A stretch of 23,552 nt of DNA, from IMG/VR virus record IMGVR_UViG_3300032006_000087, positions 1 to 23,552 of that record; one strand, 5' to 3'. A program made the position numbers and the translations under genes. The DNA comes from a virus. This document shows, piece by piece, positions 2,248-14,050 of this stretch. Numbering within the stretch: position 1 is the stretch's first letter; each line of letters begins with the position of its first letter. The notes below the pieces were generated by a model. It was not told the origin of the DNA. It ran no database searches and worked only from the letters and a program-made list of their open reading frames with translations.

Positions 2248-2362
2248 AGGAGGTTACAACCACCCATGGTATGAATATTTAAAGAAACCTAAACCACCTA
2301 CTAAAGAAGCCGTTGAAAAAGCACAATTCAGAGATAAAACCTATCGATGGAACGGACGGTAG
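2207..2362 (+). CDS. Small overlapping ORF, 51 aa, unknown
   Basis: The ATG lies inside the primase-helicase 3' end and the stop lies inside the exonuclease 5' end, so the ORF bridges the gap between them. The product is rich in Tyr, Trp, Pro and Lys (GGYNHPWYEYLKKPKPP, then a charged helix and RWNGR) and looks like a real protein rather than random translation. No Shine-Dalgarno precedes the ATG. Without this ORF, 2248-2312 would be the only unexplained gap in a cluster otherwise packed end to end. No family is recognised. Confidence 0.5.
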   Translation: MKLNPNSTQPQIFEGGYNHPWYEYLKKPKPPTKEAVEKAQFRDKTYRWNGR

Positions 2363-2912
2363 AACTATTGTATTCGATCTGGAGGCTAACGGATTACTAG
2401 ATGATGTTACCCGTATCCACTGTATTGCATACTATGATTCAGAGACAGATGAAATTCATTCTTGTAATGATGAATGTAATTGGAAAAACCCAACGGGAGC
2501 TGGTAAAGGTATGTCGTCTCCTATTGTTCGAGCAATACAGTACCTCGAACAAGCTTCGACTATTATTGGCCATAACATTATTGGTTATGATATACCAGTT
2601 ATTCGTAAACTCTATCCATTCTTTAAGCCTCTTGGCACTGTTATTGATACCCTGCTCCTTAGTCGCCTCTATCATCCACGACTTATGTCACTAGATAAAG
2701 ATCGTAATTGGAGTCATATGCCACTTCAGCTGTATGGACGTCATTCACTTGAAGCATATGGTTATAGATTAGGAGAGTACAAAGGAGAATATGGAAAAAA
2801 TACTGATTGGAAAGAATGGAGTCAAGAATTAGAAGATTACTGTAAACAAGATGTTGCTGTTACTAAAAAACTATGCGACCACTTCCACCCATACCTGAGT
2901 GGATTACGTTAG
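2313..2912 (+). CDS. DNA polymerase 3'-5' proofreading exonuclease domain (N-terminal half of T7 gp5)
   Basis: 199 residues matching only the exonuclease domain of family A phage polymerases. Exo I is FDLEANGLL with Asp22 and Glu24, Exo II is HNIIGYDIP with Asp93, and Exo III is DYCKQDV with Tyr176 and Asp180. All catalytic carboxylates are present, so proofreading activity is expected. T7 gp5 starts with the comparable motif at its first residues, so the true start lies near 2313; the only conventional start available in frame is TTG 2313, after a stop at 2280. The ORF ends shortly after the domain while T7 gp5 continues into the polymerase. Here that continues in the -1 frame from 2873, with a 40-nt overlap. 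It is either a separate subunit or half of a frameshifted gene. Confidence 0.9.
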   Translation: MKKHNSEIKPIDGTDGRTIVFDLEANGLLDDVTRIHCIAYYDSETDEIHSCNDECNWKNPTGAGKGMSSPIVRAIQYLEQASTIIGHNIIGYDIPVIRKLYPFFKPLGTVIDTLLLSRLYHPRLMSLDKDRNWSHMPLQLYGRHSLEAYGYRLGEYKGEYGKNTDWKEWSQELEDYCKQDVAVTKKLCDHFHPYLSGLR

Positions 2913-4135
2913 AACACCAGGTAGCCCACATATTACAACAACAGGAGGAACATGGATGGTACTTTGATGAACGAGGAGCTCAAGAACTTGAATCAACTCT
3001 CCGAAGAGAGCTGGAAGAAACTACTGAGTTACTTCGAAAACAATTCCCTTACGTTGCAGGAGCGTTGTTCACTCCTAAACGAAATAACTCACGCCAAGGA
3101 TATGTCGAAGGCGCAGAACTACAACGATTAAAAGAATTTAACCCTACATCAAGAGATCATATCGCATGGATACTCCAGACACATTTTGGCTGGACACCAA
3201 CCCAGATGACAACTACTGGGAAGCCTATTATCGACGAGATTATTCTGAAAGAGATAAGCTCACCCTTCTCGAAGCAATGTCTGAAACTTTTAGATCTGAC
3301 AAAGAAGCTTGGGATGATCTCAGAAGGCGTGAACGCATGGAGCAAATTATGTACGACGTCTAGCAGGATTCATCATCACTGTTCTGTAGGGTGTGCTACA
3401 CATAGATGTAGTCATAGAAATCCTAATTTAGCACAGGTACCGAGCGATGAAAGATTTAGGTCTTTGTTTTTACCTACGCCAGGGATGGTTATGGTTGGGG
3501 CTGATCTTTCGGGTATTGAGTTACGTATGCTGGCACATTATCTCGCTAAGTATGACGACGGTAGGTACGCGGATATCTTACTTAATGGCGACATCCACCA
3601 AGAAAATGCAGATAAAATTGGAATCAGTAGAAGAGAAGTTAAAACAGTTACCTACGCATTCTTATATGGAGCAGGAAATCAAAAGATCGGCACATCCTTC
3701 GATGGTAGCCTTGGGGAAGTTGAAGCAAAAAGAAAGGGTCAAGAAATTCGCAAAGCTTATGTTGACGCCATTGAAGGTCTTTCCGATCTCCTTAAGGCTG
3801 TTAAACGGGCTGCGGAAAGAGGTTTCGTCCGTGCACTCGACGGTCGTAAGCTCAGCGTTGACAAGGGGCATATCGCCCTCAATTACCTCCTCCAAGGGTC
3901 AGCAGCGACGATAGCAAAACGATGGATGTTAATTGCCAATGAAAATCTACCAGAAACTACTAGACAACTTGCATTCATTCATGATGAATTACAATTTGAA
4001 GCAGAAGAAAAGGACATCAAAGACTTGATGTTCAATCTAGAACACAGTGCTGTACGCGCTGGTGAATACTACAATTTACGAATCCCAATTGCTGCTGAAG
4101 CAAAGTCGGGAAGTAACTGGGCGGAAGTCCACTAA
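2873..4135 (+). CDS. Family A DNA polymerase, polymerase domain (C-terminal half of T7 gp5)
   Basis: 420 residues covering thumb, palm and fingers of a T7-type polymerase. Motif A is VGADLSGIELRMLAHY (catalytic Asp211), motif B is REVKTVTYAFLYGAG (Lys257, Tyr261) and motif C is FIHDELQFE (His370, Asp371). Tyr261 matches T7 Tyr526 and E. coli Pol I Phe762; Tyr at this site favours ddNTP use and has been associated with virulent phages. The region between thumb and palm (about residues 57-95) is much shorter than in T7 gp5, so the thioredoxin-binding insertion appears absent. No Shine-Dalgarno precedes the ATG, which sits just after an A6 run inside the exonuclease ORF. Translation may depend on coupling or frameshifting. 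The 5'-3' exonuclease gene follows 6 nt later. Confidence 0.93.
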   Translation: MRPLPPIPEWITLEHQVAHILQQQEEHGWYFDERGAQELESTLRRELEETTELLRKQFPYVAGALFTPKRNNSRQGYVEGAELQRLKEFNPTSRDHIAWILQTHFGWTPTQMTTTGKPIIDEIILKEISSPFSKQCLKLLDLTKKLGMISEGVNAWSKLCTTSSRIHHHCSVGCATHRCSHRNPNLAQVPSDERFRSLFLPTPGMVMVGADLSGIELRMLAHYLAKYDDGRYADILLNGDIHQENADKIGISRREVKTVTYAFLYGAGNQKIGTSFDGSLGEVEAKRKGQEIRKAYVDAIEGLSDLLKAVKRAAERGFVRALDGRKLSVDKGHIALNYLLQGSAATIAKRWMLIANENLPETTRQLAFIHDELQFEAEEKDIKDLMFNLEHSAVRAGEYYNLRIPIAAEAKSGSNWAEVH

Positions 4136-13543: not shown

Positions 13544-13601
13544 GCGTCCGTTCATCCTGGTCTCAGGACGCATGCCGCCTAACCATGGAACGGGGGTTAG
13601 G
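13544..13601 (+). other. Tandem hairpins downstream of hli (structured spacer)
   Basis: Two perfect inverted repeats stand side by side. GCGTCC (13544-13549) pairs with GGACGC (13566-13571), with an alternative inner stem CCTG (13556-13559) and CAGG (13564-13567). CCTAACC (13578-13584) pairs with GGTTAGG (13595-13601). No T run follows, so this is not an intrinsic terminator. Likely roles are mRNA 3'-end stabilisation for psbA-hli, RNase processing, or a small RNA. Confidence 0.6.
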
Positions 13602-13605
13602 TACT

Positions 13606-13678: not shown

Positions 13679-14050
13679 ATGAAACTTATTGCACTTGCAG
13701 CACTGACTGCATCAGCAGCCTTGGCTACACCTGCAACAGCGGGAGTCTTCGTGAACGTGGAAGCAAATTCTTCCCGCACCGGAAGCAATTTCGAATCTAC
13801 CGTAACAGATCTACATGTAGGTTATGAAGGTGGTGGTGAACAGTTTGGTTATTATGTTCAAGGCGGTCCTGCTATCGTAGCAGTTGACGGTGTTGATTCT
13901 GATAACAGACTCTCCGGTAAACTTGGTGGTTCTTTCCAGGCCACTGAAGCATTTGGAGTTTATGGTGAAATCTCAGTACTTACTGCTGACAATGACACCA
14001 ATAATGACAACTCCTGGGGAACCAAGATCGGAGCTAAATATAGCTTCTGA
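13679..14050 (+). CDS. Exported outer-membrane beta-barrel-like protein, 123 aa
   Basis: The N-terminus is a clear Sec signal peptide: MKLIALAALTASAALATPATA with cleavage after Ala21 (A-T-A), shown here only to define the site; residues 4-16 are the hydrophobic core. The mature part of about 102 residues has alternating polar/apolar strands rich in Gly, Tyr and Val (VFVNVEANS, DLHVGYEG, YYVQGGPAIVAV, KLGGSFQAT, FGVYGEISVL) and ends in KYSF. A C-terminal Phe after an amphipathic strand is the BAM-recognised signal of outer-membrane barrels. About six strands are visible, a small barrel. The function is unknown; it may remodel the host surface during infection. It lies in the psbA-hli cassette and overlaps the next gene at TGATG. 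Confidence 0.8.
   Translation: MKLIALAALTASAALATPATAGVFVNVEANSSRTGSNFESTVTDLHVGYEGGGEQFGYYVQGGPAIVAVDGVDSDNRLSGKLGGSFQATEAFGVYGEISVLTADNDTNNDNSWGTKIGAKYSF

Follow-up and report, generated by a model that had tools for sequence, protein, structure and literature searches.

The family A DNA polymerase of the T7-like cyanophage analyzed here is most likely made as two independently translated chains, an exonuclease and a polymerase, which arose by fission of the gene in the interdomain linker and are expected to form a two-subunit polymerase; we put the probability of this reading at about 0.87. True gene fission into two chains was one of several readings weighed in an earlier note on this DNA, and it is supported by the start and stop codons at the junction, by an A run that is not conserved, and by relatives in which the two genes are separated. 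In the following, the window is the whole stretch of DNA that was analyzed (23,552 nt).

Clade-B cyanopodoviruses are common among viruses of Prochlorococcus and Synechococcus, and their polymerase gene is a standard counting marker. The clade-B polymerase has been recorded as 'split or frameshift' (2012 paper; PMC3350473), and the GenBank notes on P-SSP7 and S-TIP37 do likewise. Proteomics of P-SSP7 was reported to support a two-frame gene (PMC3350473), which is compatible with both a split and a frameshift, and a 2019 paper states that the polA gene of some cyanophages carries a frameshift mutation (PMC6370689). No paper settling split versus frameshift was found in the literature searched, which did not cover the 2005 P-SSP7 genome paper. 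The split itself is already known from GenBank and the literature; the window is a new member, and the comparative evidence for separate chains is new.

Layout of the locus

Genes in the window, a 23.5-kb virus record, are ordered as in a T7-like cyanophage: primase/helicase, exonuclease ORF, polymerase ORF, a further exonuclease, ribonucleotide reductase, structural genes, psbA, and hli (names by inspection, except for the tested genes). The extents of the two ORFs, their overlap with the polymerase in the −1 frame relative to the exonuclease, the A6 run with the polymerase ATG 2 nt after it, and the −1-frame stop at 2864 were all found as the earlier note had described them (Table 1). The note had described the A6 run as lying at the junction. 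The run and the ATG are indeed there, but the homology does not change frame at the run: the change lies at HPYL/PEW (about 2897–2902), ~30 nt past the A run, where single-chain relatives read MFEPKLEQYADCIDTEH.

Table 1. Features of the exonuclease/polymerase junction (positions in the window unless a locus is named)
Feature	Position	Strand	Remarks
Exonuclease ORF	2313–2912	+	DnaQ-like 3′-5′ exonuclease; equivalent to T7 gp5 residues 2–183; conserved domain from ~2367
Polymerase ORF	2873–4135	+	Family A DNA polymerase domain, 420 aa; equivalent to the T7 gp5 polymerase domain; −1 frame
Dual-coding overlap, 40 nt	2873–2912	+	40 nt in 157/202 split relatives; 34–52 nt in 201/202
Invariant Leu codon CTA (exonuclease frame)	2871–2873	+	Third base is the A of the polymerase ATG; A- or T-ending in 202/202
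Leu codon TTA plus G of the polymerase LEH motif	2909–2912	+	Creates the exonuclease stop TAG at 2910–2912
A6 run	2865–2870	+	Not conserved in the clade; not the mechanism
In-frame TAA (polymerase frame)	2864–2866	+	Just upstream of the polymerase ATG
Homology change, exonuclease HPYL / polymerase PEW	2897–2908	+	Interdomain linker of single-chain relatives; probable original fission site
HNH-type ORF insertions at the exonuclease/polymerase junction	L239: 1196–1511; L394: about 1234–1512

Both halves of the polymerase are intact

Pfam and PDB searches identified the exonuclease ORF as a DnaQ/RNase H-type exonuclease and the polymerase ORF as the polymerase domain of T7 gp5 (PF00476 above cut-off). 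The AlphaFold models of both halves were confident and complete (mean pLDDT 90.4 and 90.6), and for the exonuclease half as well as for the polymerase half the best fold match was T7 gp5. The statement that both ORFs keep their catalytic motifs was borne out by alignments of 21–25 relatives, in which the acidic residues of Exo I, II, and III (D4, E6, D75, and D162, numbered from 2367) and the polymerase residues D211/E216, R253/K257/Y261/Y265, and H370-D371-E372 are invariant; motifs A, B, and C of the polymerase are intact in the window. A split frame alone can suggest decay, but that the polymerase is a decaying pseudogene is scarcely credible with all catalytic residues invariant, halves that hardly vary in length within the clade, selection on the start and stop codons (see below), and replicating isolates among the clade-B phages.

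While the extent of the exonuclease ORF stands, its TTG start at 2313 is doubtful. The residues ahead of IVFDLE are not conserved and overlap a conserved small ORF; on these grounds the true exonuclease start probably lies near 2364–2369. No in-frame ATG or GTG is present near the conserved N-terminus (2313–2369) of the window, nor in the near relatives L003 and L008, and a candidate non-canonical start is ATT at 2367, which directly follows the stop codon of the small ORF. The small ORF (51 aa, 2207–2362, ending EGGYNHPWYEYLKKPKPPTKEAVEKAQFRDKTYRWNGR) is itself conserved in relatives, overlaps the 3′ end of the helicase gene and the 5′ end of the exonuclease gene, and was missed at a 60-aa cut-off.

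Distribution of the split among relatives

Searches with tblastn against phage records showed that P-SSP7, S-TIP37, S-SBP1, S-RIP2, S-CBP1, P-SSP10, and others carry this gene pair in the same arrangement. P-SSP7 (PSSP7_017A/017B) and S-TIP37 (STIP37_17A/17B) agree with the window in gene order, −1 frame, 40-nt overlap, and start and stop positions; the window polymerase is 66–68% and the exonuclease 56–58% identical to theirs, with no architectural difference. Among loci drawn from three IMG/VR scans plus isolates, the split in the −1 frame is present in each of the 202 clade-B (MPP-B; P-SSP7/S-TIP37-type) loci, and each of the 53 Syn5/P60-type loci has a single frame, with no mixture. In a further scan, 77 loci had the −1 relation, some of which were not new; in one other locus the genes were separate and in frame 0. 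The clade-A phages Syn5, P60, S-CBP2, and SS120-1 carry homologous exonuclease and polymerase halves in the same genomic neighbourhood as the window, but in one unbroken frame, with the above linker where the window has HFHPYL / PEWITLEH.

These data also bear on a one-base assembly or sequencing deletion in the window contig (A7 to A6), which had been raised earlier and for which the short homopolymer at the junction could speak. Since the split is clade-wide and includes sequenced isolates, such an error is excluded for all practical purposes: the same frame and 40-nt overlap recur in isolates that several research groups had sequenced and in more than 200 loci, the window being no exception, and loci with A7 are split, too.

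In the polymerase tree, the split loci are monophyletic (support 0.996–1.0) with the window inside, and the single-chain phages T7, RHEph01, and S-EIV1 fall outside the split group. Trees of the exonuclease only were too weak and did not recover clade B as a group. A FastTree analysis of the polymerase joins clade B with an uncultured clade having separate exonuclease and polymerase genes (support 1.0; see below), whereas IQ-TREE (stopped at a time limit, without bootstrap values) and a concatenated tree group this uncultured clade with the single-chain phages. Owing to these different placements, fission may, from the sequence trees, have arisen once or twice.

Start and stop codons at the junction

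Every one of the 202 split loci has an NTG codon (187 ATG, 15 TTG) as polymerase start, placed over a Leu codon that is invariant in the exonuclease frame. Because of this position, a start exists only if the Leu codon ends with A (ATG), T (TTG), or G (GTG). The exonuclease stop is TAG in 188 of the 202 loci and lies 34–52 nt past the polymerase start in 201; in variants with MEH instead of LEH, the stop moves 12 nt further. As to the less frequent start codons, TTG is dominant in one subgroup of split loci (43/75), and GTG does not occur in the split loci, though Leu CTG or TTG would yield it and it should work.

At the start site, the Leu codon ends in A in 55 of 60 lineages, compared with 19 expected from the Leu usage of each genome; the Leu codon of the LEH motif that makes the TAG does so in 43 of 46 lineages, compared with 14 expected. 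G- or C-ending codons at the start site occur in 0 of 69 lineages (P about 3e-16 under independence); these codon statistics assume independent lineages, though the lineages are related. As a control for shared ancestry, which meets kinship only in part, every one of the 43 conserved-Leu columns in the two proteins was ranked site by site by its A-ending codons. The two junction columns rank as the top two, with 0.87 and 0.90, followed by 0.63 for the next column and a median of 0.31. Leu codons before TG are already 50% A-ending elsewhere (26% for Leu before GA), so sequence context accounts for part of the start signal. Judged from these codon comparisons, the start and stop codons at the junction are under selection. 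Maintenance of the start codon favors internal initiation over frameshifting, because only initiation needs a start codon.

A run, slippery sites, and local structure

One T7-like chain would result from programmed −1 frameshifting by the ribosome or if transcription slipped on the A run. The layout, with a second ORF that begins shortly before the end of the first and lies in the −1 frame, resembles that of known frameshift genes and fits such a mechanism, as does the A6 of the window at the junction, and the GenBank notes on P-SSP7 and S-TIP37 leave both options. However, a canonical X XXY YYZ slippery heptamer is present in 6 of 202 loci (1 of 69 lineages), and a four-base slip codon is missing from the allowed stretch in 23 of 69 lineages. 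The run comprises at most three A residues in 60 of 99 relatives, and the six loci with A7 at the run are all split like the window; A-run slippage, one of the readings in the earlier note, was thus rejected. The region around the polymerase ATG is AT-rich (33% vs 45% G+C) and less structured than average (mean −4.0 vs −6.9 kcal/mol), these figures being for the whole region and not keyed to any particular slip site. Further evidence against frameshifting comes from the conserved start codon, which it does not need, and from intervening ORFs and stops in two relatives (L239 and L394, described below) that forbid a fused chain. We regard frameshifting as the main route to be improbable; a low-level or non-canonical shift may occur.

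It is still less probable that, besides two main chains, the phages also produce and use a frameshifted fusion as a minor product. A shift of a few per cent at non-canonical sites is compatible with the data, and slippage at the run could take place in those members that have A6 or A7 there, the window among them. Against this stand the lack of a conserved slip element and a stop 6 or 9 nt before the polymerase ATG in many loci; the polymerase frame is not kept open upstream.

As had been stated before, no Shine-Dalgarno match precedes the polymerase ATG in the start region (best match 2 nt), and most genes of the window phage are also without one.

Relatives with separated genes

Separate chains should allow their genes to lie apart, and natural relatives with such separated exonuclease and polymerase genes exist. 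In two clade-B loci, both metagenome contigs, an HNH-like ORF lies between the two genes: L239 (a 44-kb contig, identical with L348) and L394. The inserted ORF starts at the conserved polymerase ATG itself (in L394 ttATGGCACCAC, MAPLSYEDKL...CEILCANCH). The exonuclease still ends at its own stop codon, and a new polymerase ATG follows 281 nt (L239) or 225 nt (L394) after it. The relative frame of the two genes in L394 is no longer −1. The HNH match of L239 (E 0.018) is below the cut-off of Pfam, and the ORF inserted in L239 does not itself have an intact frame. A group I intron as source of these insertions was considered and rejected, no Rfam match to one being found in the L239 and L394 insertions at E up to 1 and 0.5.

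The second case is a large, related clade of uncultured marine phages (L243 and L265–L344; contigs up to 80 kb), in which exonuclease and polymerase are distinct genes. These are mostly apart, ranging from a 14-nt overlap to a distance of 949 nt, in all three relative frames and with variable inserts. Shine-Dalgarno-like sequences precede 33 of 79 polymerase starts in this clade, and the best isolate among the matches listed is 45.5% identical to its polymerase.

Proposed origin and expression of the two chains

For the preferred reading of two separately translated chains, we propose that an ancestral clade-B cyanopodovirus polymerase gene of T7 type was split by a frame-changing mutation in the exonuclease-polymerase linker. 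Each half would then be translated alone, with the exonuclease ending at a TAG ~40 nt inside the polymerase gene. For initiation in vivo, we infer that the polymerase would start without a Shine-Dalgarno sequence at the conserved ATG (or TTG), which lies within the exonuclease gene; the stretch around it is rich in A+T and has little structure, which would suit direct initiation. Ribosomes terminating nearby may help; coupling to exonuclease termination is only a possibility, because the near-fixed start-stop distance is partly fixed by dual coding.

The two chains would be expected to associate non-covalently as a proofreading polymerase. T7 gp5 unites both domains in a single enzyme, and the split gp43A/43B polymerase co-purifies and is active; by analogy to these two systems, assembly of the two chains into one enzyme is inferred. 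The comparative evidence thus predicts two associating chains of about 20 and 47 kDa and pinpoints the codons concerned. Tentatively, and at somewhat below even odds, clade B and the related uncultured marine clade might have a true two-subunit family A replicase with separately initiated proofreading and synthesis, a tunable ratio of the two, and a start captured by the HNH-like ORF.

Comparison with known systems

T7 gp5 shares fold and motifs with both halves of the window polymerase, but it is one chain where the window has two, and the window is without ~45 residues of the region that follows residue 262 in T7 and contains the thioredoxin-binding loop. The T4-related Aeromonas phages 25 and 44RR also have their replicative polymerase in two chains, gp43A/43B; those of phage 25 co-purify with polymerase activity present (PMC2988022). 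Some members have a homing endonuclease at the junction (PMC2988022), similar to the HNH-like ORFs of L239 and L394. Unlike the window polymerase, gp43A/43B belongs to family B, is split at another place, and has inserted sequence between the halves, whereas the window halves overlap. The OM43 phages MEP401 and MEP402 likewise carry a marine phage family A polymerase on two ORFs, but with the split inside the polymerase domain and a small ORF between (PMC10580990).

Other features of the window

At ~3060–3100, the polymerase has 6 residues where T7 has about 50; most of the region with the thioredoxin-binding loop is thus missing, which bears on the processivity factor of the polymerase. A Glutamine-II riboswitch aptamer was detected at 13546–13602 (57.6 bits; gathering score 33), between an hli-like ORF and the ORF at 13679.
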